Assembly (NCBI GenBank): GCA_949710005.1
Contig: OX453275.1
Location: forward strand, 7,843,481-7,907,480
Source: Ricordea florida
Taxonomy: Eukaryota > Cnidaria > Anthozoa > Corallimorpharia > Ricordeidae
DNA: 64,000 nucleotides
Direction of reading: 5' to 3'
Below are positions 5,045-48,021 of this stretch, piece after piece. Made by a program: the position numbers and the translations under genes. The notes under the pieces were generated by a model that was not told where the DNA came from, made no database searches, and saw only the letters and a program-made list of their open reading frames with translations. The first letter of the stretch is position 1, and every line of letters begins with the position of its first letter.

Positions 5045-5050
5045 TGATCT
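5045..5050. repeat. Left target-site duplication of the giant element
   Basis: TGATCT directly abuts the left inverted repeat; TGATCC directly abuts the right one at 48016-48021. Five of six bases match in direct orientation, as expected for a duplication made on insertion. Confidence 0.6.
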
Positions 5051-5685
5051 GTTTTACTTTCTGGGCAACCGAGCACGATTCACGTGAATCGAGCTCGAAA
5101 TGCATATCGAGCTCGGTTTATAGTAGGCCTCGGATCATCGTGCTCAATCAACAGTGAATGGAGCTCCATATATTCTACTCGAGCTCGGTGGATGATGGGA
5201 CTAGGAGCGAGCTCGATTTAGTATTACCGAGCTCGATTTAGTTACCGAGCTCGATTTAGTCACCGAGCTCGATTTAGTCACCGAGCCAAGTTTACTCACC
5301 GAGCCAAGTTTAGTCACCGAGCCAAGTTTAGTCACCGAGCCAAGTTTAGTCACCGAGCCAAAGTTTAGTCTGACGGAGAGAGGTCTGAGACAGAGATCCC
5401 CGTTTTCGGTAGAGTTGTACGGTGTACATTTTAGAAGTACACCACTAGTTCAGATTTACCGGGTAATATTGAAGGTAAGGGACAAGCTCTTTTGTTAACT
5501 TTGTTTTTAACTGATTCGGTTTTTGATAAAGTACGTTTGTTCTAGTTCTAACTGCGGTAGAAGCTATATTTTCAAGTTGGAGTTAGAAAAATACTCGCCA
5601 AATTTTACAAACTTTGCTGTTTAGACTTGTAGAGCATGGGATGGGACAACGTAGTGCCAAAATTAAATGAAATTTACATGGAAAT
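5051..5685 (+). repeat. Left terminal inverted repeat of the giant element
   Basis: The tip holds a perfect 14-bp palindrome, GATTCACGTGAATC. Next come several GAGCTCG motifs and a tandem array at about 5210-5370 of 18-bp units in two forms, ACCGAGCTCGATTTAGTC and ACCGAGCCAAGTTTAGTC. An inner unique part contains a GTGTAC/GTACAC hairpin and a GAAG|GTAAGG splice-donor-like site. Repeated subterminal motifs are typical transposase-binding sites; that role is inferred. Homology to the right copy ends near 5685. Confidence 0.8.
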
Positions 5686-5937
5686 CAATTTCAGGTATTG
5701 TCCAGGCTGTATTGTTTGGTCTTTTGTACCGGCTCTTGTGTACCGGTACACGAGGACTGAACCTTAATGCAGGCTAATAAAATCTTGACAAGTGTACAGC
5801 AAGTCACAAGAACAGGTGAGGCGTATAGTTTCACATAATTTTTATTCTCAAATTAGACATCAAAACCAATTTCTTTATTCCATTGCAGATGACACGGTTA
5901 TTCATGAAATTCTATGATAGGAAAGCTTGAGTACTAT

Positions 5938-6310
5938 GGAATTAGATGGGTAACCTTAAATTGGTTTTCAAACGATCTAGCTTTCTGCAAATAAACTCTC
6001 CTTAAATGTAAAGAAAACTCAGTTCATGGTTTGCAAAACTTGGAAGAAAAAAAATCTTGGAATAACATCAGTTAAAATCGATGGAAGAGCAGTTGAAAGA
6101 ATAACGTACACTATCGAAAAGTTTATTTCCTAATATTACTAGGAGATATCATATCAATCAGGCGTCATTTAAATTATCCACAATGACAGGAATAATAAAT
6201 TGCCAAAAGCAAGGCATTACAAATGTCTCAAAATTCTAATTATGATCTATAAATACAGTGATATGCCCACACATAATACATTGTATTATTAGATGGAACA
6301 GTGTATTTCC
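5938..6310 (+). pseudogene. Degraded LINE reverse-transcriptase fragment
   Basis: Translation with frameshifts gives the 3' half of a non-LTR reverse transcriptase: NWFSNDLAFCK, SLNVKKTQFMV-like, an IDG turn, and later GIINKLPKARHY followed by LKILIMIYKY, the thumb-region signature of CR1/L2/RTE-like elements. Stops and frame changes show it is long dead. It lies between the left repeat of the giant element and the Polinton. Confidence 0.6.
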
Positions 6311-6429
6311 TATTAGGTTTTAACCTTTTTGTCTGATATAAAATCAGATAGTAATAATTAAGACATGTGCAAAATTTAGGGACAAATTGAAACAAATTCT
6401 TCTTTCACCAAAGTTAATCAATATTTATA

Positions 6430-6435
6430 AACTTA
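6430..6435. repeat. Left target-site duplication of the Polinton
   Basis: AACTTA next to the left repeat tip pairs with TACTTA at 24404-24409. A 6-bp duplication is the known length for Polinton integrases; one base differs. Confidence 0.6.
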
Positions 6436-7437
6436 TGATGTATAATTATGGGGGTTCTGGCACATTTTCATTACGATTTCATTTTAAGCGCGGTGCTAGC
6501 ACAATGTTGGTTTTTCGGGTGGGCCGACAGGCGGAGCGAGCCGCGCGAGCGGAGGGCGAATCTATCTTTGAAACTGGAGGGTTTGTGCCAACGGTGAAGT
6601 CGGAAAGCGGGCGAGCCGACAGGCGGAGCGAGCCGCGCGAGCGGAGGGCGAATCTATCTTTGAAACTGGAGGGTTTGTGCCAACGGTGAAGTCGGAAAGC
6701 GGGCGAGCCGACAGGCGGAGCGAGCCGCGCGAGCGGAGGGCGAATCTATCTTTGAAACTGGAGGGTTTGTGCCAACGGTGAAGTCGGAAAGCGGGTGGGC
6801 CGACAGGCGGAGCGAGCCGCGCGAGCGGAGGGCGAATCTATCTTTGAAACTGGAGGGTTTGTGCCAACGGTGAAGTCGGAAAGCGGGTGGGCCGACAGGC
6901 GGAGCGAGCCGCGCGAGCGGAGGGCGAATCTATCTTTGAAACTGGAGGGTTTGTGTCAACGGTGAAGTCGGAAAGCGGGCGGGCCGACAGGCGGAGCGAG
7001 CCGCGCGAGCGGAGGGCGAATCTATCTTTGAAACTGGAGGGTTTGTGTCAACGGTGAAGTCGGAAAGCGGGCGAGCCGACAGGCGGAGGGCGAATCTATC
7101 TTTGAAACTAGAGGGTTTGTGTCAACGGTGAAGTCGGAAAGCGGGCGGGCCGACAGGCGGAGCGAGCCGCGCGAGCGGAGGGCGAATCTATCTTTGAAAC
7201 TGGAGGGTTTGTGTCAACGGTGAAGTCGGAAAGCGGGCGGGCCGACAGGCGGAGCGAGCCGCGCGAGCGGAGGGCGAATCTATCTTTGAAACTAGAGGGT
7301 TTGAGCAGATACAAAAACGATACGAAAGCGATGAAAAAAAAATTGAAAATATATGGTTTTAAAGAAAAAACAGTGAAATATAATACGAAAATGGAACAAC
7401 AATTACAAAGATTAAATGTACCACAATTAAAATCTTT
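6436..7437 (+). repeat. Left Polinton terminal inverted repeat
   Basis: The first 90 bases are unique. Nine units of a GC-rich 92-bp tandem repeat (core GGCGGAGCGAGCCGCGCGAG) follow, one of them shortened by about 20 bases. A last 130 bases carry the polB promoter box, the start codon and the first SAP-domain codons. Homology to the right end stops near 7437, inside coding sequence. Confidence 0.9.
7358..7364 (+). promoter_or_regulatory. TTTAAAG promoter box of polB
   Basis: It lies 33 nt before the ATG at 7391, inside the terminal repeat. The same box at the same distance precedes the other Polinton genes. Confidence 0.6.
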
Positions 7438-9868
7438 AGTTAGATGGTATAATATTCAAGGACGATCTGCGTTTAATAAAGCAGAACTTATTCGTGCATT
7501 GATTAATATACCCGAAATAACTAATAATATTCAAGAAATAGTTGATAATATTGCTGGAATTGTTGGGGCGCTACGTAATACCCCAAAGAGACCAAGAGAC
7601 CAACCAAATTTGCCCCTTCCAATTCCCATACCGAATATTACACCCCCGCAAATAAGACCAATTCCTGGCACACCACCCGGATCGCCAGATAGATTTATAC
7701 CGGAAACACCTCCAGGCCCGCCCCCACCAAACCAACCTAGAATAAATATTAATAAATATAAATCAAAAAGACATTCACCACCCAAACCAAAAACAAAACA
7801 AACCCCCTTTTTAGGAAATGTATTAAACAAGTTTTGGAATTTTGTGAAACCATACATTCCAGAAAAAGCAAAAAATAAAACAGAAGAATTAGCTAAAAAA
7901 TTTATAGAAAGATACAAAAAAGTAAATAAGCCCAAAGAAATAAAACCGCCAAAAAGAGATTACGAGAAGGAGGGAGCAAGACCAAAAACAAAAAGAAATG
8001 AGAATGTGGAAGATTTTACACCAAGAGAATATGAATCAGCCATTAATGGTAATTATATAAGCTATAGGATTGAAGGAAATGAAAAGAATGATGAAAAGAC
8101 ATTCCTACATAAAATAAAACCAAAAGTTATGGATTTAATTAGAAAGAGAGTTAAATCACAAAAATCATTGAAGACTAAATTTATATTTACATGCAGATTC
8201 AAAATGAAATTATTTGAAGAATTAGAAATATATGAATACTGTAATGCGAATTTTCCTTCTGAAAAATCAGAAATTGTTCTTGAGGCAACAGATTTATCAG
8301 AATTATTTGATAGATTAACAAATCAACAACTTGTATTATTTGAAAATTTTATAAATAATGGATCTGGTTGGATATTCGAACGCATACTATTTTTTGACAT
8401 ATTCATAGATCGTTTTGTTCCACTTTTAGGCGGATCTTATATTCCGTTACCAAAAGAATTGTTAAACAGGAATGCGATTATTAATCCACAGAATTATAAT
8501 GATGATGAATGTTTCAAGTGGTGTGTATCACGAGCAGTTTATCCAACCGATAAAAATCCACAAAGAATAACTAAAGAATTGATAGAACAATCAAAGAATT
8601 TTAATTGGAATGGAATTAATTTCCCAAGTACAATTCAAGATATTGTTAATTTTGAAAACCAAAATGATTATGATATTGCTATATATGGATATGATGAGAA
8701 AATAGGGGTATATCCTATAAAAAGAAGTAGTAAACGGGGATTTAAATTGATCAGATTACTTTTATTAACAGAAGAAACTGAAGATGAAGAACCAAAGAAA
8801 CACTTCGTTTTAATAAAGAATATTAGCGCACTTATATGCAGGCAAGTTACTAAACGAAAATGTAAGTTGTATTTTTGTGATAATTGTTTGCATCCTTTTC
8901 ACTTAAAAAACTCATTAGAAAAACATGAAGGATATTGTTTTTTGTACAATGAAGCAAGAATTGATATGCTAAAAAATCAAGATGGAAGCCCATGTTTTAT
9001 TTCTTTTAGAAATTTTGTGAAAAAAATGAGAATACCTTTTGTAGCATACGGCGACTTTGAGTGTATTTTGGAAAAAATAAAACAAATGGGTCTGCTAGAT
9101 AAAAATAAGAGTTACACTAATAAATATCAGATGCACAAACCGGTTGCATTCGGATGTTATATTAAGAGTTTTAATGAAAAAATATGCAAATCCCGATTTT
9201 ATAGATATACTGCCGAATCACCCGAAGATGATGTTGCACAGAAATTTGTGGAATATCTAGAGAAAGAATTTAAGGAAATTTATAAAAATTGCATTAGTTA
9301 TAATAAAAAAAGATTCAAAAAGTTTAATAAGAAGAATATGACTGAAGATGAAAAAATAAACTATGAAAACGCAACTAATTGCCATATCTGTGAGAAAGAA
9401 TTGGGCGAAGATAAGGTAATAGATCATTGCCATCTTACAGGAAAGTACAGAGGTGCAGCACATAAGGAATGTAATTTAAATTATAAGATTCCAAAATTCT
9501 TCCCGGTCATAATTCACAATCTTTCGGGGTATGATTCTCATCTATTTATTAATAATCTTGCAAAAACAGAAGGTAAAATAAAACTAATACCAAATAATGA
9601 GGAAAAGTATATTTCTTTCTCAAAAGAGATTGTGGTTGATACCTTCAAAGATAAAAAAAGCGGGGAGATGAAAGATGTTATAAGGGATATCAGGTTCATA
9701 GATTCATTAAAATTTATGCCGTCCAGCCTTGATAATTTGTCTGGCAATCTTACTAAATGTGGAAAGTGTGATGTTTGTAAAGGTGAAATAAAAGGGAGGT
9801 GTCTTAATCCGACAGATAAAAACCTACATGAAACTACAAAGTATTTTGTAAGCGAAAAATTAAAGTTA

Positions 9869-10579
9869 TAATTATATAGCAGTCAGTTAATCCAGTATTG
9901 CCAGCACGGCTATTATCCTTTAATTTTTCAGAACTGTCCAATTTGGGATTTAATTTGGACAGTTTTCAATATGGAATTTGAGTAAAAATGCAGAAACTGT
10001 CCTATTTGGGAAAAAATAGGTCAGTTTGTTTCAGCCAATGAAATCCAAGAAAAAACAATAGATTGTCAAACCAACCAATCAGCCGTGAAGAAACGTCAGC
10101 ACTGAAAGCAGGACAGGTCGCCATTGTTGTTGACAACATGGAGGAATTCAGTGAAGAAAATTTGCCAAATTTTTCCATCTTTAGCAGTTCTAACACAAAT
10201 GAGAGAATTTCATGGTTGCAGGAAGAGGAAATTAGTACTCTTAAAAGCAGAAACGAAAACTCAAACACCGCCAAGAGCACAAAAACGTGGCTCAACGTTT
10301 TCAACGAGTGGAAACTCCAGCGTAACGAAGCTAAGTACCCGTAAGCAACGTAAGTTCCCATAGTTTTCCTCGCGAAGCTGTATTTCCTCACTAGCTATAT
10401 AATTAATAAGTAACAGGACCACATGCTTGTCCAATTTGGAAATAATTGGATGAAAAAAATTCCTCTGACAGCCAAATTGGACTCGGCCTACGGCCTCGTC
10501 CAATTTTGGCTGTCCTCGGAATTTTTTTCATCCAATTATTTCCAAATTGGACAGCATGTAGTCCTATTACATATACTTA
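9869..10579 (+). mobile_element. 711-bp non-autonomous insertion in polB, copy 1
   Basis: Composite unit. The first part (9869-10405) ends in perfect 12-bp inverted repeats TAATTATATAGC/GCTATATAATTA. The second (10406-10579) is a hairpin with arms around GTCCAATTTGGAAATAATTGG. TTA sits on both sides (9866-9868 and 10577-10579), compatible with a short target duplication. The length is a multiple of three. A 93-aa open frame (10063-10344) ends with KSTKTWLNVFNEWKLQRN, which recalls the N-terminal region of tyrosine-recombinase-related (Crypton-like) cnidarian proteins; that link is tentative. Palindromic CTGTCCAATTTGG motifs recur inside. Confidence 0.75.
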
Positions 10580-11531
10580 TTGAGAAAGGGAGTATTCCCA
10601 TATGATTGGCTTGATGATTTTGTTAAATTAAACGAAACCCAACTTCCACCAAAGGAAGCTTTTTACTCAAAACTTAGAGGCGAAGATATTTCAGATGAAG
10701 ATTATGAACATGCTAAAAAGGTATGGGCAACATTTAATATGAAAACAATGCGAGATTACCTTGATCTATATCTCAAGTCTGATGTGTTATTATTGGCTGA
10801 TGTATTTGAAAACTTTAGAGATGTTTGCCAAAATACCTATAGATTAGATCCTGCTTGGTATTATACGGCGCCAGGGCTTGCTTGGGACGCAATGTTGAAA
10901 AAAACTAAGGTTCAATTAGAGATGATAAATGACATTGATATGCTAATTATGATTGAGAAAGGTGTTAGAGGGGGTATATCTCAGATATCAAACAGATATG
11001 CTAAAGCTAACAACAAATACATGAAAGAATATGACCCAAAAATGATAGCAAATTATATAGAATATCTTGACGCAAACAACTTATATGGTGGGGCAATGAG
11101 TGAAGCATTACCAACTCATGGTTTAAAATGGATGAGTGAAAATGAGAAAACAAATTGGAGAAATATTCCATGTATAGTAGAGGTTGATTTAAAATATCCG
11201 CGACATCTTCATGATTTACATAGTGACTATCCGCTTGCTCCGGAAAGAATTAAGGTAAATAGGGTTGAGAAATTAATACCAAATCTTAACAATAAGAAAA
11301 ATTATGTTGTTCATCATGAAACATTAAAACTTTATGAAAGTCTAGGATTAGAAGTAACAAAGATTCATAGAGGAATTAAATTTGAAGAGTCAAAATGGTT
11401 AAAATCTTACATAGATTTGAATACCCAACGCAGGGCCGAAGCAAAGAATGATTTTGAAAAAGATTTCTTCAAACTCATGAACAACTCTGTATTTGGTAAA
11501 ACAATGGAAAATCTTAGAAAAAGGGTTGATA

Positions 11532-12242
11532 TAAGTATATGTAATAGGACTACATGCTGTCCAATTTGGAAATAATTGGATGAAAAAAATTCCGAGGACA
11601 GCCAAAATTGGACGAGGCCGTAGGCCGAGTCCAATTTGGCTGTCAGAGGAATTTTTTTCATCCAATTATTTCCAAATTGGACAAGCATGTGGTCCTGTTA
11701 CTTATTAATTATATAGCTAGTGAGGAAATACAGCTTCGCGAGGAAAACTATGGGAACTTACGTTGCTTACGGGTACTTAGCTTCGTTACGCTGGAGTTTC
11801 CACTCGTTGAAAACGTTGAGCCACGTTTTTGTGCTCTTGGCGGTGTTTGAGTTTTCGTTTCTGCTTTTAAGAGTACTAATTTCCTCTTCCTGCAACCATG
11901 AAATTCTCTCATTTGTGTTAGAACTGCTAAAGATGGAAAAATTTGGCAAATTTTCTTCACTGAATTCCTCCATGTTGTCAACAACAATGGCGACCTGTCC
12001 TGCTTTCAGTGCTGACGTTTCTTCACGGCTGATTGGTTGGTTTGACAATCTATTGTTTTTTCTTGGATTTCATTGGCTGAAACAAACTGACCTATTTTTT
12101 CCCAAATAGGACAGTTTCTGCATTTTTACTCAAATTCCATATTGAAAACTGTCCAAATTAAATCCCAAATTGGACAGTTCTGAAAAATTAAAGGATAATA
12201 GCCGTGCTGGCAATACTGGATTAACTGACTGCTATATAATTA
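11532..12242 (-). mobile_element. 711-bp non-autonomous insertion in polB, copy 2 (inverted)
   Basis: Reverse complement of 9869-10579. The encoded 93-aa frame (11767-12048) and the hairpin are identical to those of copy 1, so the pair forms an inverted repeat with 700-bp arms around a 950-bp loop of polB. End positions are uncertain by about three bases because the flanks are AT-rich. Confidence 0.75.
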
Positions 12243-12945
12243 GATTGGTTACTAATGAGAAAGAAGCAAGAAAATTAATATCAAAAGCTAACTATAATCG
12301 AAGAACTATTTTTTCTGAAAATCTTATGGCCGTACATATGAATAAAACACATATAAAATACAACAAACCTATTTACTTAGGAATGTGTATTTTAGATATA
12401 AGTAAAGCAATGATGTATGACTTTCATTATAATTATATTAAACCAAAATATGGTGAAAAAGCCAAATTACTTATGACAGATACAGATAGTCTTGTATATG
12501 ATATAGAAACTGAGGATTTCTATAAGGATATTGCCCCAGATGTGATGGAAAGGTTTGATACAAGTAATTTTCCTAAAAAACATAGATCAGGTATTTGGAC
12601 TGATAAAAACAAAAAAGTAATTGGTAAGTTTAAAGATGAGGCTGGCGGAAAAATTATCACTGAATTTGTCGGTCTACGAGCCAAGCTTTACTCATACAGG
12701 ATGGATGGGGGTGAAGAGATAAAAAAGGACAAGGGGGTAAAGACATCAGTAGTAAAAAAGACAATAAGCTTTAATGATTACAAGGAATGTTTGGATAGTA
12801 AAGTAAAGCAGATGAGGGAGATGCAAGTAATAAGAAGTTACAAACATTTTGTTTATACTGAAACTGTTAATAAAGTTGCACTATCAGCTGATGATGATAA
12901 GAGAATAATTTGTAAAGACGGAATACATACTCTGCCATATGGACA

Positions 12946-13932
12946 TTATCTCACTAAAACAGAATTAGGCGGCAACACAGTATCATAAGGTATAACTTGT
13001 AATTCTTCCCTTACAAAACCTCGTCTAGGCCCGTCAGTTAAATAATATAAAACAGGCTGATTAGGAGTAATCATACTTTTAGAAATATTATAAACTTTGA
13101 GGCTCCAAATAGGATCTGTGGCCCTTCTTCGTTCTCCTCCTTCAAGTTCACCGGGAAATAATAGATATCTAACTTTAACCACTGGTGGCAATCTAACTTC
13201 ATCAAGCCCAACAACCCGCTGATAATTTTTGGGTTTAATATCAACCTCTTTCATTTTTATAGCCTCAACAGGCTCTTTACCGGTTATTCTAGTTGGTGTA
13301 TTATTCAAAGTTTTTAGAATAGCTGGCAATCTTTTCACCCATACTCTTGATCGGGCATCACTCACCATTTCTTGCGCATATTGATGGCTAAATAATCTTT
13401 CGCCTAATATTCTATTTGCGTTTTCCACAAATGCTTGAGCTCTATGATTACCGGCTTCACTTCTCTGCATTTTCACATTATGGTAATTCATGAGTTTACT
13501 AACTTCACCCATAAATTCTTTCCCAGGATCAACCATTAATGTTTTTGGGTATTTTAATCTTCTAGAATATATTTTTGTAAAAGCTTCTGATATCTCTCGA
13601 CTTTCTTTTGAGGTTAATGGCTCAGCATCTTTATATCTCGAGGCGATATCAACCACAACTAACGCATATTTATATGTTTTTCTTCCAACTCTATCATGCG
13701 GTAAAAATAATAAATCTGCTTGATGGATCTGATTAGGTTTATCCACAGTCCAGTGGGGCCTAGGTATATATTTAGGCGCAGGTAGATAGATTTGCCATAT
13801 TGCCTGTTTCTGCAACCACTGTTTTGCCGTATTTTCACTTACTCTAGCCCTCTCAGCTAATTTAGGAATTGCAGAATATCCTTTCCAATATCCTTCAGTT
13901 GAATAATATATTTTTGACAAAGTAGAACTCAT
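12946..13932 (-). CDS. int: Polinton retroviral-type integrase
   Basis: A 328-aa DDE integrase that inserts the element and makes 6-bp duplications. It has an N-terminal helix-turn-helix-like region (AERARVSENTAKQWLQ). The core has catalytic D73 (HQADLL), D135 (LMVDPGKEF) and E170 (AFVENANR), with 34 residues between the last two. The C-terminal domain is beta-rich (VRYLLFPGELEGG onward), where Polinton integrases usually carry a chromodomain-like module. It is convergent with polB and divergent from the small gene at 13966, with 33 bp between starts. The frame is intact. A weak TTTAATT box lies 35 nt upstream, overlapping the neighbour's start. Confidence 0.93.
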   Translation of the reverse strand: MSSTLSKIYYSTEGYWKGYSAIPKLAERARVSENTAKQWLQKQAIWQIYLPAPKYIPRPHWTVDKPNQIHQADLLFLPHDRVGRKTYKYALVVVDIASRYKDAEPLTSKESREISEAFTKIYSRRLKYPKTLMVDPGKEFMGEVSKLMNYHNVKMQRSEAGNHRAQAFVENANRILGERLFSHQYAQEMVSDARSRVWVKRLPAILKTLNNTPTRITGKEPVEAIKMKEVDIKPKNYQRVVGLDEVRLPPVVKVRYLLFPGELEGGERRRATDPIWSLKVYNISKSMITPNQPVLYYLTDGPRRGFVREELQVIPYDTVLPPNSVLVR

Positions 13933-13938
13933 TTAAGA
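13932..13938 (+). promoter_or_regulatory. TTTAAGA promoter box of the 62-aa gene
   Basis: It lies 34 nt before the ATG at 13966. The following GTATCTTATAAATTA is repeated almost exactly before the capsid gene. Confidence 0.55.
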
Positions 13939-13965
13939 TTAACAAAAAGTATCTTATAAATTAAA

Positions 13966-14154
13966 ATGGTGGAGGAAGAAAAAACAAAATTTAGCGAATA
14001 TCAAATTAATCTTATGAAAAAAATTATTAGAAAAAAAATTCTATATATGGAAGATGGCGATAAAATTTTTAATATTATGATTTTAATTCCCGAGGCGAGA
14101 GAGGGTTTATTAAAACATATTGTCAAGTTAGAAAATAGAACAACACAGGTTTAA
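13966..14154 (+). CDS. Small 62-aa Polinton protein
   Basis: Charged, helical, 62 residues, with no recognised motif. It has its own promoter box and its leader is nearly identical to that of the capsid gene, which supports it as a real gene. Its stop codon overlaps the capsid gene's promoter box. Function unknown. Confidence 0.6.
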   Translation: MVEEEKTKFSEYQINLMKKIIRKKILYMEDGDKIFNIMILIPEAREGLLKHIVKLENRTTQV

Positions 14155-14156
14155 AG
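14150..14156 (+). promoter_or_regulatory. TTTAAAG promoter box of the major capsid gene
   Basis: It lies 34 nt before the ATG at 14184 and overlaps the stop codon of the preceding gene. Confidence 0.6.
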
Positions 14157-14183
14157 GTTAACCAAAGTATCTTATAAATTACA

Positions 14184-15443
14184 ATGACGTCTGAAAAAAT
14201 TAATCCAAACAGAATTCCCAAAGAACCCTTTGGTTTGAAAGCAGAATCAACATTGAATAGAATTACTCTAAATCCATCCACGGCCAGTCCAGGAGAAACA
14301 TTATACATAAATATTCCAAAACTCGCCGAGAATTTAGTGATTGTACCCGGAAGTGTATCTCTTCTATTTGATTTAGATGTTGAGGGTCATGCGAATAATA
14401 CACTTGTTAATAATGTAGGCCGTAATCTTGTAACTAGACTAAAAGTTCTTTTTGGAGGAGAAACATTGCAAGATACTCAAAGATATGATTTATTTCAAAC
14501 ATATCATGATTTATTCTTAACTGAAGAAGAGCGCGAAGATAGATTAAAACAAGGTATTTCTTCGCTAAATATTAGAAAACTTAGAACAAAAGCTGGAGAC
14601 GCAAAAACACAAGATGTAAAAGAAGTTGCTCTCGCTAATGTTCATGGTTCAAAGTATAGAATACCAATAAATCATCCTATTATAAACGATCATGGTGTTT
14701 TTTATCCGAAAGCGTTGGAAAATCATCTTATATTTGAGCTTACACTTGCCCCAATCACTAATATTCTTATTTATTCTGATACAACTAAAGCACCATCATA
14801 TTCAATCAAAAACTTAGAGTTAGAATATTCTTCAATTTCTAGTGAATACTTAGCCCGCGAGGCTCAAGCAGCTTATCAAGTTGGTAAAGGATTCTTTTAT
14901 GAAAATATTACCTTACACAAAACTTTTACATTTTCCATTGGCGGTGATGGTGTTATTAATCAGCATATTAATTTACCGAGAAGATCAATGACAGGAATAT
15001 TGTTTTTGTTTTTATTGCCTCAAACTGCAGGAGCAAGGGATTCTGAAAATTTTTATAACCCTGGTATATCTTCCGTTGAAATTGATGTTGATGGGGTACC
15101 AAATCGAATATACTCTAGGGGTATGATTCCATCTGATCTTTGGGAATCCGTGAAAAAACGCTTCCGAACAACGGGAGGAACTCATAGGGATGATGGTTTA
15201 CAAATTTCATTGAAAGAAAAAGAATTTTACTCGGATAAGTTTGCTCTTTGGGTTGATACTAGAACTCATCCAGATAATGGTATTCATGGTGGTGGACTTG
15301 CTCTAAATAATACGCATGATGGTGTAAAAATAGAAATTAAAAGGAAACAAAGCGGATCTGGAACCGTAACTTGCCATATGTTTGTTGTAGCAGATGCAAT
15401 GATGGAGATTATGAATTCAAGTTTGAGATCAATTAAGTACTGA
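14184..15443 (+). CDS. MCP: Polinton major capsid protein
   Basis: A 419-aa protein at the position and in the style of the double-jelly-roll major capsid protein that forms the hexon-like shell of Polinton virions. Supporting features are a beta-rich composition, an N-terminal STASPGETLYINIPKLAENL strand region, GRNLVTRLKVLFGGETLQDT, and in the second half FSIGGDGVINQHINLPRRSM and SSVEIDVDGVPNRIYSRGM. Identity rests on gene order next to the packaging ATPase, size and overall resemblance; fold prediction would confirm it. The frame is intact. Two GC-rich hairpins follow the stop codon. Confidence 0.85.
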   Translation: MTSEKINPNRIPKEPFGLKAESTLNRITLNPSTASPGETLYINIPKLAENLVIVPGSVSLLFDLDVEGHANNTLVNNVGRNLVTRLKVLFGGETLQDTQRYDLFQTYHDLFLTEEEREDRLKQGISSLNIRKLRTKAGDAKTQDVKEVALANVHGSKYRIPINHPIINDHGVFYPKALENHLIFELTLAPITNILIYSDTTKAPSYSIKNLELEYSSISSEYLAREAQAAYQVGKGFFYENITLHKTFTFSIGGDGVINQHINLPRRSMTGILFLFLLPQTAGARDSENFYNPGISSVEIDVDGVPNRIYSRGMIPSDLWESVKKRFRTTGGTHRDDGLQISLKEKEFYSDKFALWVDTRTHPDNGIHGGGLALNNTHDGVKIEIKRKQSGSGTVTCHMFVVADAMMEIMNSSLRSIKY

Positions 15444-15445
15444 TC

Positions 15446-15473
15446 GGCGCGTAAGCGCCTCCCCGCTTCGCGG
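15446..15473 (+). terminator. GC-rich twin mini-hairpins after the capsid gene
   Basis: GGCGC-GTAA-GCGCC (15446-15459) and CCGC-TTC-GCGG (15463-15473) are back-to-back stems in otherwise AT-rich DNA, three bases past the capsid stop and just before the ATPase promoter box. A role in transcript ending or RNA processing is inferred. Confidence 0.45.
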
Positions 15474-15481
15474 ACCGAGAA

Positions 15482-15488
15482 TCTAAAA
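15482..15488 (+). promoter_or_regulatory. TCTAAAA promoter box of the ATPase gene
   Basis: It lies 33 nt before the ATG at 15515. Confidence 0.6.
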
Positions 15489-15514
15489 ACATAATGTTAT
15501 GATACAAAAAAATC

Positions 15515-16147
15515 ATGGAAGATTTACGAGATAAAATACCATTCCATTGTATTATAACAGGACCAACAAATTGTGGAAAAACAAAGTACTTAATTGAACA
15601 GCTCCGAGGCCCTTTCCGGAAAGTTTTTGAATATATTGTGTTAATTTGTCCAACCTATTCTAAAAATAAAACATATCATAATTTTGCACGAGGAGATAAA
15701 CATTTCTATGTATTATTACCTAATGCAAGTAATATTGATGAGATTAATGAATTGTTAAATGATTGCCAAACTTTTTTTTCTGGAACAAATACATTAATAG
15801 TTTTGGATGATTGTGCAGTATCTAACGATCTGAAAAAGCGATCAAACAAGTTTATAGATTTAGCATTCTCTGGAAGGCATCATGGATTATCAGTTTGGGT
15901 TTTAACTCAACAATTAACATCAATAGCAAAACCATTTCGAGAAAATGTTGCCTGCGTTGTTACTTTTCATAATCCATCGCAAAAGGGCATGAAGATGTTT
16001 TTTGAAGATTATGGAGGAGATATGGATTATGAAACTAGTAAAAAGTTTGTTCAACTGCTGAAAACTGAAAAATATTCTAGACTTTGTTTATCTTTACGTT
16101 ACCCATTTAATTGTTATTTGGAGATACCAGAAGTGATTTCCGCGTAG
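15515..16147 (+). CDS. Polinton genome-packaging ATPase
   Basis: A 210-aa FtsK/HerA-type packaging ATPase that pumps DNA into the capsid. Walker A is GPTNCGKT (residues 16-23), Walker B is LIVLDD (94-99), and a sensor-like WVLTQQ lies at 128-133. The length fits the compact viral packaging ATPases. The frame is intact. The stop codon sits within a CCGC-GTA-GCGG hairpin, and a second hairpin leads straight into the next gene's promoter box. Confidence 0.93.
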   Translation: MEDLRDKIPFHCIITGPTNCGKTKYLIEQLRGPFRKVFEYIVLICPTYSKNKTYHNFARGDKHFYVLLPNASNIDEINELLNDCQTFFSGTNTLIVLDDCAVSNDLKKRSNKFIDLAFSGRHHGLSVWVLTQQLTSIAKPFRENVACVVTFHNPSQKGMKMFFEDYGGDMDYETSKKFVQLLKTEKYSRLCLSLRYPFNCYLEIPEVISA

Positions 16148-16165
16148 CGGGGCCGACAAAGTCGG
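16140..16165 (+). terminator. GC-rich twin mini-hairpins at the ATPase stop
   Basis: CCGC-GTA-GCGG (16140-16150) spans the stop codon and CCGAC-AAA-GTCGG (16153-16165) ends one base before the next promoter box. The layout parallels the hairpins after the capsid gene. Confidence 0.45.
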
Positions 16166-16172
16166 TTTAAAA
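16166..16172 (+). promoter_or_regulatory. TTTAAAA promoter box of the 176-aa gene
   Basis: It lies 31 nt before the ATG at 16197 and abuts the CCGAC hairpin. Confidence 0.6.
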
Positions 16173-16196
16173 CTAATAAATCTATTATCTCAAAAG

Positions 16197-16727
16197 ATGA
16201 CAAACCTTGAAGATTATATAGAAGAAAAGGAAGAGGTAAAAGATGATAATGAACTTGAAATAAAACAAGAATCACTTGCCATTCTCGCAGCCTTAGGAAC
16301 AACAAAGGAATATTTGGGGGTTGAAATGAGTCTGGGTGATATAAAGAAATTATCTGCAAAAGATGTTGAAAAGTATTTTAATCGTTATCAAGCGGTAATG
16401 GGTAAGAAAATTAACGGTGGATTAGTAGATTCGTCCCTTCAATTAGTTTCCAAACTTATTTCTTATTTAGTTCCGGTTGATGATATAGAATCTCTTTGCA
16501 ATGATCTGAAGAATGATGATTTGGTAAATCGTGAATTAACAAACATTGTTGGGCTCTTAGCATTGAAAGCAGGAAGACTGGCAGCACTTGCTAGCGGATT
16601 ATTTCAAGTAGCTAAACATGTTAAATTCAACAAAAATCAACAATTTTCAAGAGAAGAACCAGTAAATTCTAACATAACTAATCAGGAAACTAAGCAATCT
16701 ACTGAAGGTGTTGATACAGTATATTAA
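16197..16727 (+). CDS. Conserved-looking Polinton protein of 176 aa
   Basis: Acidic N terminus, then a helical core (VEKYFNRYQAVMGKKINGG and LLALKAGRLAALASGLFQVA). There is no clear membrane segment, and the second stretch could be an amphipathic helix. It sits in the morphogenesis block straight after the packaging ATPase, so a structural or assembly role is likely but unproven. No named family recognised. Confidence 0.75.
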   Translation: MTNLEDYIEEKEEVKDDNELEIKQESLAILAALGTTKEYLGVEMSLGDIKKLSAKDVEKYFNRYQAVMGKKINGGLVDSSLQLVSKLISYLVPVDDIESLCNDLKNDDLVNRELTNIVGLLALKAGRLAALASGLFQVAKHVKFNKNQQFSREEPVNSNITNQETKQSTEGVDTVY

Positions 16728-16732
16728 ACAGA

Positions 16733-16739
16733 TCTAAAA
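16733..16739 (+). promoter_or_regulatory. TCTAAAA promoter box of the 143-aa gene
   Basis: It lies 32 nt before the ATG at 16765 and matches the ATPase box and its next bases (ATCTAAAAAC). Confidence 0.6.
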
Positions 16740-16764
16740 ACTTATTTGTAGCATCTAAATAACA

Positions 16765-17196
16765 ATGTCTGAACAATCTGAAGTAGAGCAAATTACAGCT
16801 GACCCAGCACCTGGAAATACTGATACTAAAAAGAGGGAGAAAGATCCTAAAAAAGTCGCAGCTGGTAAGAAATTAGCTGAATATAATAAAAAAGCAAAAG
16901 AAGCATTAGCTAGGGAGATGAAACGAAACGAAAATACAGAAATGGTGTATAATCAAGAAAAGATAAATAATGAATATAATCGCGAAGCGAAATCATGGCT
17001 ACCAGAGTTATCTTTTACTACTGTTTTATCTGTTATTGGATTGGGTTTTACAGCATTTGATCTTTTTATGAGATATAAGGAAAAAGCTAGGGTTGAATAT
17101 TCCAATAGGATAGCTGATTTATCGCAAGTTCCACAAATACCCCAACCTTCAAGAATTCCATTGCATTTAACCTCAAAATCTTTAGGAATGGAATAA
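16765..17196 (+). CDS. Single-span membrane protein, Polinton, 143 aa
   Basis: A Lys/Glu-rich N-terminal half, one hydrophobic segment (FTTVLSVIGLGFTAFDLFM, about residues 82-100) and a short proline-rich tail. It is first in a run of membrane proteins (16765-19815). Function unknown; a virion-membrane or internal-vesicle component is a reasonable guess from its neighbours. Confidence 0.75.
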   Translation: MSEQSEVEQITADPAPGNTDTKKREKDPKKVAAGKKLAEYNKKAKEALAREMKRNENTEMVYNQEKINNEYNREAKSWLPELSFTTVLSVIGLGFTAFDLFMRYKEKARVEYSNRIADLSQVPQIPQPSRIPLHLTSKSLGME

Positions 17197-17207
17197 TTAT
17201 AAAGTTA

Positions 17208-17214
17208 TTTAAAA
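17208..17214 (+). promoter_or_regulatory. TTTAAAA promoter box of the 72-aa gene
   Basis: It lies 33 nt before the ATG at 17241. The downstream TTACTGATGTAGTAAAAAAT is nearly repeated before the 415-aa gene. Confidence 0.6.
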
Positions 17215-17240
17215 GTTTCTTACTGATGTAGTAAAAAATA

Positions 17241-17459
17241 ATGACAACCGAAAACAAACTTGTGAAAACTGTAACTGATTCAGCGGTACTTATCGGATTG
17301 GGGGCTGGAGTTGGACATGTGGCTAAAAAGGTAATGAAAGAATCATTTTTGAGCGACCCATCCTCAAGTATTACAAATTATGCAAAATGGGTTGCTGTAT
17401 TATCCGGGAGTATGTATCTAAAAACATATTTAGAGGATCAAAAGATTTTACCAAAATAA
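17241..17459 (+). CDS. Small membrane protein, Polinton, 72 aa
   Basis: Two weakly hydrophobic helices (SAVLIGLGAGVGHVA and WVAVLSGSMYLKTYL). Only four bases separate its stop from the next ATG, so the two are probably made from one transcript. Confidence 0.7.
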   Translation: MTTENKLVKTVTDSAVLIGLGAGVGHVAKKVMKESFLSDPSSSITNYAKWVAVLSGSMYLKTYLEDQKILPK

Positions 17460-17463
17460 AATT

Positions 17464-17856: not shown

Positions 17857-17879
17857 TTAGTTTTCTTACTTCAAGCATA

Positions 17880-19159: not shown

Positions 19160-19163
19160 CAAA

Positions 19164-40600: not shown

Positions 40601-43600
40601 GACCCTTACCTACTAGAGAGTCGCACTTGAATGTCTCATCCAATCATCTAAAGTGTTGTCTTATACTTTTATGAATAGATCCTGAGCAGCTCAGCATCGA
40701 TGACTCTGATAGTAAGGTTATAGAATAATAAAATTAACTGAGTGATATTGTTTAACAGTAAAAGATGAGTGAATGTCTGTGAAGACAGGTATTCGGGAAA
40801 GTCTGCGTCAAGCCCATACAGTGGCCAATACAGGTGGAGCTTATCCAGGTTTCTTTACAATGAAGCAACTAAGAGTATTTGCACTCCTCCTGGTTCTCTC
40901 ATGTTGGAGGCACAATGGCCTACTGTTTAGCAAGCATGTCAGAATGACGACTAAATTATAATCATCTGTTTAAGGGCTCTCCAAAGGGTGCTTGCAGGTT
41001 GCAACAGAGAGGACTGGCTATATTGGGCAGCAGAAACATCATCAGAAGATGGCGAGAAAAGTAAGTTAAAAATATCTGAACATTGAAAGGGTATTCTATT
41101 ACTCACTTAATGTTAAATCGTATACAGAACTTAATGGTTATGTTACATGTTTGTTTAGGTATTTGGATATATTTGATACATGTTAATATTTTTCAACATT
41201 TTTTCAGATTACCCATAGAGTGTCTTATAAACTAGCACAAACTTACTTATCGTAATCACATCATAGAGCAGAATCCAGTTAAGATTCTTAAAATTTTTGT
41301 AATGGTTGTAGTTAGTTAACCAAAAAAGCACTCAGTTGCTTATATGAACATTTTACATGTATATTTTATTGGAAATATATATATTTTTTTACATCTATAG
41401 ATATATTTATAAAAATAAATATTTTTTTTCAAAACAGTCATACAGTTATATGGAAACAGGCAAGAAGACCAAATTATCTTACTGGCCCCATCAGCAGGTC
41501 AAAACATGGTCTTCATTGAGAGGATAGAAAATGACAATCCAGGCAAGATCAATGTTTTGTTTTAACTCCAATCCCGTCAACGTAATTGGGCTTTTTTATA
41601 AATCCATGTTAAGAGTACAGAAGTGATTATCATCGAAATTCACAAACAAGTGACTTCAAATGGTGAAAGTGTAGTGTAACATCACAGTTCTTTGAAATAG
41701 GAAAAGAAATAATGGCAGGAATAAAATTAAATGAAACACACAATACCACTAAGTGGAGCTCATGCACAATCTGTCCTGAAACTATTTGCAGAAGGGCTTC
41801 CACATGGGTGGATAATAATGAGAAGAGGTATTTGTCTTCCTAAACAAAATGCTAACATCTTGCTAGGTAGAGAGAGAAACATTGTAGGATTACTTAAATT
41901 ATAAAACTGAGTTAAAAAGTTTTGTCACACATCTGGTTCATTCTCAACAGATTTCAACCCAAACAGGGTACATGAAAGAGTTAAGCTCATGATTGAAGGC
42001 CTGAGTTTGGAAAGGTGAGTTTATTTTTATACTTAGTTATTTCGTATAAATCAGTATTAACAAAGGTGCCTCCAGGTTGGCAAAGGTAGTCTAAAGAGAG
42101 ATCTGATACAACATAACTATAATTTAGCATTGAGGTTAGCTATAGATAGGAATACGTTTCTTTAAAATTTGAATTTTGGCACTTATAGAGAGCAACTAGC
42201 CAACTGGAAAAGGGAAAGGAAAGAGCAAGAAATGTCCCTGAGGGAAACCCAACAAAAGGACAAGGAGAGGGAGAAGGAGAGGGAGACAGAGAAAGAGAAG
42301 GACAAGGACAAGGACAAGGACAATGAAATGATGGGTGTGGAGGATGCTGCTACAAATGTGATAGCAAAGCAGGTTAGTTAACCCAAAAACGTAAACCATT
42401 TACATGTTACCTTAACAAGTTCTTAGACAGACTGACTAACCTCATATTGTTAATACTAAAACATAATTGTATGCTTGTTTGTTGTATGTAGATAAGAGAG
42501 ACCAGACGATTAAGAGTACGTCCACCGCCAGATGAAGGCACCACAATAATCCTCCGTCTCAAGGATGGAGGAAAAATTGCAAGGAAATTTAGGAAGAATG
42601 CCCTGTTCCAGGTATAATGGTACACTCCATGTTTTAGCCACTTGAATTCATTTCACTGAAATATTTGGAAGAAAAAAAAGTTGCTTGCAAAATTGCAAAA
42701 ATGCTTCACAATACAAACTTTCTAACCATTACCATAGTAATTAAGGATGTCTGTCACCAAAGAATCTCAGTGTTGAGAAAAGAAAAGGGGAACTCTGTAT
42801 CTGATGTCTCATTCTTCAAAACTGTCGCTCACCATTGAAGTCTGGTTATACTTAGGATACAGGTTGAAGTTTTTTGGTACGAAAAGCCACAGCTCCGTGT
42901 ACATCTGTATAAGTCTATAATGTAAAAATGCAACTTGATACAGGCATCTAAGAAATAACACAATTTCTCTTATGTTCATGTGAATGACAGGAGGTGTATG
43001 ACTGGGCAGGAGCAATGGATGATGTGCCTCTCCACTTTACCATCCAAAGGAGACAAGCAGTAGTGGGCCATGGTGACCCTTTAGAGAACCATGAGATACT
43101 TGACCTCAGAGAAAGGGTATTTGACTTCTTATTAATATTAATGCTATTTAAAAAACACCTGCACAGTCAACCTCCAACAAAACATATTACTTGAGCAAAA
43201 TCCAGCTTTCATTGCAATGTGCACAAATTTTGAATCCTCATATTAAGATATTTCCTTGGCAATCTTTTATTGAAGTAAGAATCAAGCAGTGTTAACGCTA
43301 TACCTCAGTGACCATTCCTTTAATGGTGAAGTGGACAAAAGCCAGGATCCCATGAGATAAAAAATAAAAACTCATAGAAGTTAAAAAAAGAAAGAAAGAA
43401 AAGAAGACGTAATAACCATCTGACCCATGAAAAGTCTCATGGCTTCTCCGTAAAGAGTATTAAATATTATTTTTCTTCAAATTTCTATAGGAAGCCAACC
43501 AAATAACAACACTGCTACAATCGCAGGTAGGGAAACTAATGAATACTAGGTGATGGTACATGTCCTGCCAAATGTTTCTAAACCATGAACATATACGAAA

Positions 43601-46340
43601 CCATTAAACTGAAGTTAATTCCTATGACCAACTTAACAGGCTCCCTTGGGACGAGGCTCCTTGTGAGCATCGACACTTGGGACAGACAAACGTGACTGGT
43701 TCCCTTGGGATGAGGCTCCATATGAGCATCGACACTTGGGGCAGACAAACTTCACTGCTTCCCTTGGGACGAGGCTCCTTGTGAGCATCGACACTAGGGG
43801 CAGACAAACTTCATTGCTTCCCTTGGGACGAGGCTCCTTGTGAGCATCGACACTTGGGACAGACAAACTTCACTGCTTCCCTTGGGACGAGGCTCCTTGT
43901 GAGAATCGACACTTGGGACAGACTGGTTCCCTTGGGACGAGGCTCCCCGTGAGCATCGACACTTGGGGCAGACAAACTTGACTGCTTCCCTTGGGACGAG
44001 GCTCCTTGTGAGCATCGACACTTGGGACAGACTGGTTCCCTTGGGACGAGGCTCCCCGTGAGCATCGACACTTGGGACAGACAAACTTCACTGCTTCCCT
44101 TGGGACGAGGCTCCTTGTGAGCATCGACACTTGGGACAAACAAACGTGACAGGTTCCCTTGGGACGAGGCTCCTTGTGAGAATCAACACTTGGGACAGAC
44201 TGGTTCCCTTGGGACGAGGCTCCCCGTGAGCATCGACACTTGGGGCAGACAAACTTGACTGCTTCCCTTGGGACGAGGCTCCTTGTGAGCATCGACACTT
44301 GGGACAGACTGGTTCCCTTGGGACGAGGCTCCCCGTGAGCATCGACACTTGGGACAGACAAACTTCACTGCTTCCCTTGGGACGAGGCTCCTTGTGAGAA
44401 TCGACACTTGGGACAGACAAACGTGACAGGTTCCCTTGGGACGAGGCTCCTTGTGAGAATCGACACTTGGGACAGACTGGTTCCCTTGGGACGAGGCTCC
44501 CCGTGAGCATCGACACTTGGGAGAGACAAACGTGACAGGTTCCCTTGGGACGAGGCTCCTTGTGAGCATCGACACTTGGGACAGACAAACTTCACTGCTT
44601 CCCTTGGGACGAGGCTCCTTGTTTGGGTAATGTCATAAATCACAGCAGAACGACTTAAATTTGGATATATATATATATAAATATATGTATCAGAAATAGG
44701 AACACTGTGGACTCTGTTAAACATGAGTTGGCATCAATGTAAATGAGAGATTGCATTGCTGAAATTTGCACTAACACAATTATTAATACTACTAATAATA
44801 ATACCACAAACATTGGAAAATAGACAAACACTCTCTAAAACTGTAACACTATCAGTAACAATAACAAGTTAACACTAACAGTAGGAATAACCATAACACA
44901 AAGAATAACAAGGTAACAGTAACCACACTAATAATCACAAGTCAACACTAACAGTAACAATAATACTAACAGTAACAAAACCACTAACAATAACAATCTA
45001 ACATTACCAGTAACAACCTTACAATAAAAAGCTAATAGTAACAACAACACTCATAATCACAAGTTGACACTAACAATAACAATAACACTGACAGTAACAA
45101 TAACACATTTACACTAACAGTAGCAACCTTACAATAAAAAGCTAACAGTAACCACAACACAAATAATCACAAGTTGACACTAACAGTAACACTAACAGTA
45201 ACACTAACAGTAACAGTAACACTAACAGTAACACTAACAGTAACACTAACAGTAACACTAACAGTAACGATAACACTAACAATAAAAAGCTAACAGTAAC
45301 CACAACACAAATAATCACAAGTTGACTCTAACAGTAACAATAACACTAACAGTAACAATAACACTAACAATAATGATAACACTAAAAAGTTAATGTACTA
45401 AACCAATGAAACATGTGACACTAAGAAATAAACATGAAGGATAAAAAATAAAACACTGACAATAACTAATTTAAACATTTACAAACACTACAGGTAAAAA
45501 CACTGACAACTTTGCATCATGAGTAAATATCACAAATAATAACAAGTCACGATAACACTAACACGAACTGCAACGGTTTAAACAATTTAGTTCATGACAA
45601 AACAATGATCCATTTGATGTCAACTTCATGTAAACAGGGATGCCCTTTTTTGGTAAATAGTTTTAAGGGAAGTGGGCTACTCAAATGAAAAAGTGTGTGA
45701 CTTACTTTTGTTTCATTAACAAAAGCAAGTTACACAATTCATTGAGCAGCTCACTTCCCTTCCCTTATTTGTCTTGCAGGTCTCCTTCAGAGGAAATTTC
45801 CCTCATGACAATGATGACATTAACCTTTCAGCTACAGTTGTGGGTAAGGAAACCTATACTTACTGTTCCTATATTACATGAGAGGCAAATGGATAAAATA
45901 AAGATAACTAAATTAAATCTTAATCTATTATCCAGACTGTAGTCCAGGCAACAGCAATGCAAGCAAAAAGAATTGCCTCACGCAAACAAATAGTCACTGA
46001 CCTGGCAATGGCTAACCAAATAAATGTAAACTGATGAAAAATAGCAAAAAATGACAGATTATAGACATCACAACCTTATATTTGGGAATGTCTAAAAAAA
46101 TGACCTCAGATGAAATTTGTTTTTTCTTTTATCACAGATGAGCCTCAAATGGAGAGAAATAGGGGTGAAGGAAAGGAAGATGACAAAGAAATGCAAGGAG
46201 GAGAAGAAGAAGAAGATGAAGAAGAAGAAGAAGGAGGAGGAGGAGAAAATGAAGAGAGAAATATCAGAAAAAGGAAAAAAGACAAAAGAACCACCGCCCA
46301 AAGAAAAAGGGCTAAAAAGAATGATGCCATGTTCATGTAA
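37655..46340 (+). CDS. 608-aa protein with UBX-like domain, 16 exons
   Basis: Exons: 37655-37860, 39118-39251, 39353-39529, 39849-40004, 40679-40711, 40785-40848, 40975-41060, 41438-41542, 41759-41827, 41951-42014, 42189-42372, 42492-42611, 42991-43116, 43491-43526, 45780-45843, 46138-46340. All phases agree; intron 8 appears to use a GC donor and the exon 9 acceptor is weak. An N-terminal alpha/beta module (residues ~1-112; QITFTKNYAEDKIREQL, KKVFLYLPS) recalls the N-terminal region of G2E3-like cnidarian proteins. Two Ser/Thr-rich linker exons follow, then a Glu/Lys helix (REQLANWKRERKEQ). A UBX-like ubiquitin fold (ILRLKDGGKIARKFRKNALFQ, then VPLHFTIQRR) and an acidic tract precede a basic nuclear-signal-like tail (RKRKKDKRTTAQRKRAKK). 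A p97-adaptor or ubiquitin role is inferred from the fold only. It lies wholly inside the giant element. Confidence 0.7.
43627..44625. repeat. 59-bp minisatellite in intron 14
   Basis: Nearly twenty units with core TTGGGACGAGGCTCCTTGTG occur in two lengths, about 59 and 45 bases. All three minus-strand frames are open for long distances because the unit lacks stops; this is a repeat effect, not a gene. It lies in the intron between exons 14 and 15 of the UBX-like gene. Confidence 0.85.
44770..45590. repeat. AACACTAACAGT simple-repeat tract
   Basis: Degenerate 12-bp units (ACACTAACAGTA) run through the same intron and are most regular at about 45175-45260. Confidence 0.8.
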
Positions 46341-46366
46341 TAAAAAAATTGTGAAACTTAGCCGGT

Positions 46367-46509
46367 AAGATTTCCACACAGGTCCCTACTTTATTATGCA
46401 TACTGTAGCGGTACGGTTTCGTTCTCAGAAATATTTGTACGCACACTTCCCAAGACAATTCAGCTACAGCATGCATAGTGAAGTAGGGACCTGTGAGGAA
46501 ATCTTACCA
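46367..46509. mobile_element. Hairpin MITE of the GCATGCTGTAGC family, copy 1
   Basis: Inverted ends GGTAAGATTTCC ... GGAAATCTTACC surround AGGTCCCTACTT and its complement and the family core TATGCATACTGTAGC/GCTACAGCATGCATA. It starts 27 bases past the stop of the UBX-like gene, so it may lie in its 3' untranslated region. Relatives are at 57611-58636. Confidence 0.7.
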
Positions 46510-47362
46510 CTTAGCCTTCCTTGTTATGCCTAATTTTTCAAGAATGTGCGATACAGTTACAAGGTTTTTATAACATTTTAGATTTGTGATTTCTCAGAAT
46601 TTCTCCTCTGTAAATGACCGAGAATTTTCCATAATTTGTTATTTAAAAAATACTTATCTTGTATTGTTATTTTGTTCACATTCTTTCCTACCTTATCATT
46701 GTATTATACATGTACATCATAATAAGAATTTGAGAGATATGTATATGTCATGACTTCCCGTTGCAATTATTCCTGTCATTTTGGATATTTTAGATGACAC
46801 CAAATTGATATCTACATATAAGTTTGTCATCGATAATCAATCCTAGTAATAGAAAATAATCATTTCCATAGTCAGCAAATTTTTCTTCATTGCTTTGCAA
46901 ACCTTGAAGTGAGTGTTCTTGACATTTAAGGGTTACAAACAACATTATAATCGTATTTAGTTCTTGATTTATGGTATAATATACATTATGTGTGTTTTCC
47001 AAACACAAAACATCAAGGTAGCACACATGTAATTATTGACCTACCTGAAGTGATTTGTATTCTGCTGCTAAGTAGTTTGGAAAGCAATTTAAGGTTACCC
47101 ATCCAATTCCATAGTACTCAAGCTTTCCTAACAGAATTTCGTGAAAAACCGTGTCAACTGAAATGGAAAAAAGAAATTGGTTTCGATGTCAAACTTGAGA
47201 ATAAAAATTATGTGAAACTATAGGCCTTACTTGTTCTTCTGACTTGTTACATACTAGTCAAGTTTTAATTAGCCTGCAGTGTTTAAGCAGGTATATAAGC
47301 AAATAGGAGAGAAATCCTCGGTAGCCTTCTTATTATCTATTTCACTCAGGATTTGGCAACGT
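46510..47362. other. Gene-free stretch inside the right end of the giant element
   Basis: AT-rich DNA without supported features, between the MITE and the right inverted repeat. Confidence 0.35.
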
Positions 47363-48015
47363 ATTTCCATCTAAATTTCATTTAATTTTGGCACTACGTT
47401 GTCCCATCCCATGCTCTACAAGTCTAAACAGCAAAGTTTGTAAAATTTGGCGAGTATTTTTCTAACTCCAACTTGAAAATATAGCTTCTACCGCAGTTAG
47501 AACTAGAACAAACGTACTTTATCAAAAACCGAATCAGTTAAAAACAAAGTTAACAAAAGAGCTTGTCCCTTACCTTCAATATTACCCGGTAAATCTGAAC
47601 TAGTGGTGTACTTCTAAAATGTACACCGTACAACTCTACCGAAAACGGGGATCTCTGTCTCAGACCTCTCTCCGTCAGACTAAACTTTGGCTCGGTGACT
47701 AAACTTGGCTCGGTGACTAAACTTGGCTCGGTGACTAAACTTGGCTCGGTGAGTAAACTTGGCTCGGTGACTAAATCGAGCTCGGTGACTAAATCGAGCT
47801 CGGTGACTAAATCGAGCTCGGTAACTAAATCGAGCTCGGTAATACTAAATCGAGCTCGCTCCTAGTCCCATCATCCACCGAGCTCGAGTAGAATATATGG
47901 AGCTCCATTCACTGTTGATTGAGCACGATGATCCGAGGCCTACTATAAACCGAGCTCGATATGCATTTCGAGCTCGATTTACGTGAATCGTGCTCGGTTG
48001 CCCAGAAAGTAAAAC
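47363..48015 (-). repeat. Right terminal inverted repeat of the giant element
   Basis: Inverted, nearly identical copy of 5051-5685. It has one more 18-bp ACCGAGCTCGATTTAGTC-type unit than the left copy, which accounts for the 18-base length difference. The palindrome at the tip has one change. Confidence 0.8.
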
Positions 48016-48021
48016 TGATCC
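48016..48021. repeat. Right target-site duplication of the giant element
   Basis: TGATCC, against TGATCT at 5045-5050. Confidence 0.6.

Follow-up and report, generated by a model that had tools for sequence, protein, structure and literature searches.

A 43-kb inverted-repeat unit in Ricordea florida, a likely giant Merlin-superfamily transposon or relic with host-like genes

Introduction

Animal cut-and-paste transposons are usually a few kb long and rarely carry whole genes. The window analysed here is a stretch of 64,000 nucleotides of the corallimorph Ricordea florida (assembly GCA_949710005.1, contig OX453275.1, called C4 below), in which two long inverted repeats face each other across 43.0 kb, from position 5045 to position 48021. 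A sequence-only reading of the window had taken this unit to be a giant cargo-carrying transposon. Is it one mobile element, or do its ends and genes stand together for other reasons? We searched the genome (537.8 Mb in 48 contigs) for the ends of the unit and compared the loci at which they recur. We consider it likely that the unit is a giant DNA transposon of the Merlin superfamily or the relic of one.

Results

Structure of the unit and its ends

The features of the window are listed in Table 1. The two inverted arms (5051-5685, 635 bp, and 47363-48015, 653 bp) have 633 of 635 aligned bases in common, with two substitutions and one 18-bp gap, which corresponds to an extra 18-bp array unit in the right arm. 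The near-perfect repeats of the sequence-only reading, one array unit apart, are thus confirmed. Its extent of about 640 bp holds for the outer arms, but the inverted homology runs further inward. Inward of the outer arms there is a block of 82/84 bp, in which left and right are unrelated, and past this block the homology between the arms returns in three stretches with 85-88% identity. The left-type inner arm may resemble a LINE reverse transcriptase, and searches of Pfam, NCBIfam and PDB gave no confirmation of this likeness.

The outer 200-bp flanks of the unit are dissimilar, with 240 of 300 shuffles reaching an equal score. The left flank ends with ...GACGTTAG and the right one starts with GCATTCTG..., and no 8- or 9-bp duplication was found at the two ends, where the best agreement is 4 of 8 bases. 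GGATCA is present at the right end, and the left terminus TGATCT departs from the consensus at two of six bases. At up to three mismatches each arm has only one terminus within the window, and on this basis a small element that is complete inside each arm was rejected, as was a foldback or Ising composite, which would have a complete transposon at each end. Relatives of the end or of the 18-bp array were not found in the viral and prokaryotic collections.

Table 1. Features of the unit in the window (positions in the window; gene structures by eye).
Feature	Positions	Strand	Description
Left end	5045..5685	+	Terminus TGATCT-GTTTTACTTTCTGGGCAACCGAG (consensus GGATCA-); 18-bp array; outer arm common to both end types
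Left-type inner arm	5686..6435	+	82-bp block identical to the contig C8 end and unrelated to the right arm
Nested Polinton	6436..24404 (limits approximate)	+	Integrase, capsid, ATPase and other genes; own terminal repeats
TRAF-like gene	25070..27645	-	RING, zf-TRAF and weak MATH; five exons; 3' end towards the left terminus
Dispersed insertion, ~600 bp	28424..29028		Missing at the C5 (17.61 Mb) locus; another copy on C14
Merlin/IS1595-type DDE transposase gene	31571..32758	+	Pfam DDE_Tnp_IS1595; two exons, neither with a stop
UBX-like gene	40991..46337	+	Pfam UBX
Small MITE-like inverted-repeat element	46364..46508		Between the UBX-like gene and the right arm
Right-type inner arm	46694..47362	-	Common to the C14 and C9 ends
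Right end	47363..48021	-	Terminus GGATCAGTTTTACTTTCTGGGCAACCGAG; 18-bp array with one unit more

Genes inside the unit

Gene structures in the window were drawn by eye from splice signals and homologues. They bear out two spliced host-like genes and a spliced transposase gene inside the unit, as proposed before. The UBX-like gene matches Pfam UBX with E=7.2e-4 and 20.1 bits, just under the curated cut-off of 21. Its last exon (46137-46337) was assigned by C-terminal similarity to a Porites lutea protein (P0003), and two serine/threonine-rich stretches, around 39340 and 39844, are possibly part of the same gene. Reef corals (Montipora, Porites, Acropora) are the source of the named relatives listed for the UBX-like and TRAF-like genes.

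The intron of the transposase gene has a GC donor by eye, and an upstream exon was not located. The named relatives of the transposase are mostly from reef corals as well. As many as 151 coral proteins are related to it, and since such relatives are common, its position inside the unit could be due to chance. The gene does not appear to be a separate small element with convincing ends of its own between 29.5 and 35 kb. A search of this range gave two weak candidates, and three shuffles of it gave 0, 2 and 3. No further transposase was found by Pfam in the translated frames of the plus strand from 28.9 to 57.6 kb and of the minus strand from 27.6 to 46.8 kb, and the transposase exon has no relative in the viral collections.

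The nested Polinton

The sequence-only reading had counted a whole Polinton among the contents of the unit. The Polinton is whole in its extent, with terminal repeats of its own, but its polymerase frame is broken by two identical 712-bp inserts in opposite orientation (9869-10580 and 11531-12242). These two inserts form a perfect inverted pair in the window and yet bound no mobile unit. The Polinton is flanked by a duplication of about AACTTA/TACTTA (5 of 6 bases, by eye). It lies inside the unit, as had been claimed, but as a later nested insertion that is not part of the design, because the related locus on C5 at 17.6 Mb continues across the site without it.

Polinton genes are found inside all three giant facing pairs described below (the window, C1 and C5 at 4.97 Mb), at different places. 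Their presence there is probably not special, since Polinton capsid genes are abundant in the genome: a first look gave 6186 candidates, and all 99 of those scored match at 95-100% without an internal stop. A preference of Polintons for these giant elements is nevertheless conceivable. The capsid gene has no relative in the viral collections. We also considered whether the outer unit could itself be a Polinton. In the window and in C1, separate terminal repeats inside the unit enclose the polymerase, integrase and capsid genes, and this candidate was rejected.

Ends across the genome

Facing ends of this type can be written as GGATCA...CTGGGCAACC. A 25-base pattern of the end motif, allowing up to three mismatches, has 53 sites in the genome, and the reversed pattern, which served as control, has none. 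Among the loci that were read, nine of 11 end sites with at most two mismatches have GATCA and seven of 11 have GGATCA (17 entries at up to eight mismatches). The hexamers TGATCT and TGATCC outside the arms had been interpreted as direct repeats from the insertion, and their agreement has a chance of 0.010-0.024 as bare coincidence. This interpretation does not hold. GATC is part of the element, because nine of the 11 close sites read GATCA on outer flanks that are unlike one another, and this recurrence excludes GATC as a target-site duplication. Seven outer flanks of 500 bp each gave no mutual match at E 1e-3, and the alignment of the C5 and C8 ends runs about 11 bp past the terminus. Going outward at C14, C8 and C5, the homology to the window is lost within 2 bp of the terminus.

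Of the 53 sites, 13 have a facing partner or belong to a facing group within 50 kb, with small pairs counted, and the other 40 have none in this range. The sequence-only reading had named many solo copies with flanking duplications of their own as an argument against a single giant element. Solo ends are indeed numerous, so this argument applies in part. Own 8-bp duplications are seen at small copies: a MITE of 102 bp on C6 has an exact one, and a short copy on C16 has one by eye, its far end not being recognisable as a GG end. A small pair on C15 has a duplication of at best 7 of 9 bases.

The genome search for further facing pairs, which had been suggested as a check, gave two more of the same subtype, so that pairs of this kind are found at 43.0 kb (window), 47.0 kb (C1) and 38.7 kb (C5 at 4.97 Mb). 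The chance expectation within 50 kb is 0.0014 for the C1 pair and 0.0005 for the C5 pair, with subtype site counts of 3 x 5 and 1 x 5. Two pairs at 38.7 and 39.8 kb do not face each other, one on C12 being direct and one on C5 (24.85/24.89 Mb) pointing outward.

The giant pairs on C1 and C5

The C1 pair (C1:24,918,973-24,965,926) was read over its entire interval. Both ends have GGATCA, their first 199 bases are identical and they are alike in patches to about 360 bp. Directly outside both ends there is an exact 8-bp duplication, AGTTCTAG. Matches to the TRAF-like protein of the window cover residues 12-356 with 47-55% identity and lie 2.05-7.94 kb from the left end, which the 3' end of the gene faces. 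The distance from the left end is thus 2.05 kb in C1, and in the window it is about 2.06 kb net of the Polinton. Transposase matches (tblastn with the window protein) cover residues 1-253 with 62-65% identity at 15.3-16.3 kb, so that an IS1595-type gene is found inside two of the three giant units, the window and C1. From about 29.9 to 44.9 kb there is a Polinton, which has inverted repeats of its own (362 bp, 99.4%), and no UBX match was found in the whole interval. In the C1 element (L034), an open frame of 432 amino acids on the minus strand lies between TRAF matches, at a distance of about 4.0-5.3 kb from the left end, and may resemble tyrosine-recombinase-like proteins.

The spacing of 38.7 kb on C5 (C5:4,970,849-5,009,579) is that of the facing end sites. 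The arms are 95-96% alike, and their inverted homology starts about 163 bp outside the end-motif termini, where no duplication was found (best 4 of 8). The part read, 25.4 of the 38.7 kb, contains UBX-like matches at 7.1-7.6 kb and Polinton genes, and no match to the TRAF-like or the transposase gene. A 59-bp minisatellite in the UBX-like gene of the window (43626-44622) is about 70% like one beside the UBX-like match of this pair.

Single ends and arm lineages

Counting its own two, the left arm has 16 matches in the genome. The window-like DNA at C14 and C9 consists of the right end with the 3' portion of the UBX-like gene, and at C5 (17.61 Mb) of the left end and the TRAF-like gene, up to window position 29506 and without the Polinton and the 600-bp insertion. 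At C8 only the left end is matched. At C9 (C9:21415745-21436082) there are two tandem copies at a distance of about 20 kb, with 99.96% identity over 7.7 kb, and the duplication includes the right end.

Inward of the ends at C5 (17.61 Mb) and C14, a second end of the same subtype was not found over about 35 and 36 kb, respectively. Weak inward sites have five mismatches at C5 (L020 7484, inside a 16-kb insertion) and seven mismatches at C14, the latter without a duplication. A C14 match to window 28424-29024 was rejected as the second half of a unit, being the dispersed insertion. The 16-kb insertion (C5:17589108-17605193) breaks the C5 relative of the left half. It contains helicase-like frames and may be Helitron-like; its end regions share just a 19-bp inverted match. 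A more distant TRAF gene, with 31-57% identity, is found on C3 (L015 5340-9390), about 1.5 kb from a variant end, GGATCATTTTTTG..., and its orientation relative to this end is the same as in the window and C1.

We compared six arms from five loci in 15 pairwise comparisons. The inner arms fall into two lineages, a left type (C4 left, C8, C5) and a right type (C4 right, C14, C9). Between the lineages the 82/84-bp block is unrelated (43-48%) and the remainder is 69-88% alike, with the exception of C5 and C9, which reach 92.5% over 80 columns. Across the outer body the arms are 90-99.7% alike, whichever two of them are compared. The closest pair there is formed by the two window arms (99.7%), by a narrow margin, with C14 next at 99.0 and 98.7%. 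Over the terminal 105 bp the window arms are 97.2% alike to each other, 82-90% to C14, C8 and C5, and 96.2% to the short C16 copy. Such a pattern of outer and inner arms is what would be predicted for a two-ended element with common terminal arms.

Discussion

A giant element of the Merlin superfamily

Our placement in the Merlin superfamily is based on ends that begin with GG, the 8-bp duplication at C1 and the IS1595/Merlin transposase gene. As a transposon, the unit would consist of about 25 kb of its own DNA and an 18-kb Polinton that landed inside it, and it would be bounded by long arms that begin with GG and contain the 18-bp array. An IS1595-type DDE transposase, plausibly self-encoded, would excise the element at these GG ends and reinsert it at new sites, which would be duplicated over 8 bp. 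Judged from the sequences alone, the encoded transposase is a candidate for acting on these ends. Multi-exon host-like genes would travel as cargo, the TRAF-like gene near the left end and the UBX-like gene near the right. The window unit would have inserted as one piece and lost its duplication later at the altered left junction. Gene conversion may keep the outer arms alike, and the TRAF-like gene would have accompanied the element from before the divergence of C1 and C4. The proposal of a giant transposon is strengthened by the other facing pairs and above all by C1, where the ends are identical, the 8-bp duplication is exact and both TRAF cargo and a transposase gene are present, but the window unit itself has no duplication. 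The existence of a giant family, for which C1 is the main evidence, is better supported than the window unit as one intact insertion.

The window could also hold two separate end relics that happen to face each other 43 kb apart around ordinary genome, with outer arms made alike by conversion. A giant family would exist in this case and the window would not be one of its elements. We regard this as unlikely, although it agrees with the missing duplication, with the frequent single-ended copies and with outer arms that are nearly identical next to inner arms that differ, across a sharp border at the unrelated block. It also fits the finding that the window arms are each other's closest match by a small difference only. 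Against it, the outer body is common to both end types at all five aligned loci, and therefore conversion within the window is not needed. Two independent relics would moreover have to account for a TRAF-like gene whose distance from the left end, with the Polinton left out, is about 2.06 kb, compared with 2.05 kb in C1, in addition to the transposase gene.

Two other explanations seem far less probable still. Segmental duplications of gene regions that hold a MITE-like repeat, with nothing above MITE size moving, would account for the tandem duplication on C9 (about 20 kb apart, 99.96% over 7.7 kb, right end included) and for the small copies with 8-bp duplications of their own. We consider this very improbable, as the homology to the window stops within 2 bp outside the terminus at C14, C8 and C5, the seven outer flanks have no mutual match apart from the ~11 bp of C5 and C8, and an exact 8-bp duplication surrounds 47 kb on C1. 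That Polintons are the driver, as large Polintons or fusions of a Polinton and a transposon comparable to Teratorn, is hardly credible. Polinton genes do occur in all three giant facing pairs, but their positions differ, they have terminal repeats of their own in the window and C1, the related locus at 17.6 Mb on C5 lacks the window Polinton, and copies of the capsid gene abound (of 6186 candidates in a first look, 99 were scored and all match).

Returning to the giant Merlin-type transposon, we are inclined, with some reserve, to a broader view. Corals would hold a long-lived lineage of autonomous Merlin-superfamily transposons of 25-47 kb that carry complete multi-exon host-like genes, with TRAF in a constant position some 2 kb inward of the left end and a UBX-like gene in some. 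As animal equivalents of giant elements with cargo, these transposons would also accumulate Polintons and might move them. If this is true, a recurrent family of about 40 kb with 8-bp duplications and with signalling-type genes at a fixed place would be a route to spread intact intron-bearing genes in animal genomes. It would also indicate a way in which another element might transport a virus-like Polinton.

Comparison with known elements

Merlin elements have a terminal 5'-GG, an 8- or 9-bp duplication, a DDE_Tnp_IS1595 transposase and terminal inverted repeats of 24-462 bp, according to the excerpt of PMC8101967 used here. The present family is like Merlin (IS1016/IS1595-like) elements in its 5'-GG ends, in the 8-bp duplication of C1, which has no counterpart at the window unit or the C5 4.97-Mb pair, and in the DDE_Tnp_IS1595 transposase gene. 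It differs in the window arms of 635/653 bp, compared with the reported 24-462 bp, while the C1 ends are identical for 199 bp. It also differs in its size of 39-47 kb as found and in its multi-exon cargo, which the same excerpt of PMC8101967 does not mention. In kind it is a Merlin transposon; its size, arm length and cargo are new as far as that excerpt goes. A review passage (PMC8101967 or PMC6431247) states that the efficiency of DNA transposition falls above 6 kb of cargo. Our literature search for giant transposons with cargo genes in coral gave no papers.

Two large mobile elements of animals are described in the excerpt of PMC6431247. In Ising's composite transposing element of Drosophila, large host segments are mobilised between foldback transposons, whereas the segment described here is bracketed by single GG-ended Merlin-type arms. 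Teratorn, a herpesvirus plus piggyBac, measures 41-182 kb and is a mobile element of animals that has long inverted repeats (PMC6431247). The unit resembles it as a large animal element with long inverted repeats and differs in that no herpesvirus core is seen and the viral part is a separately inserted Polinton. Polinton/Maverick elements are represented by their genes inside each of the three giant pairs, but the Polinton has its own terminal repeats and insertion site and the outer ends are not those of a Polinton. The Starships of fungi are giant cargo-carrying transposons as well; they have a tyrosine recombinase and are not known to have inverted-repeat ends of the kind seen here.

Outside the unit, the window also contains an open Gypsy-like polyprotein of 1360 amino acids at 59874-63956.
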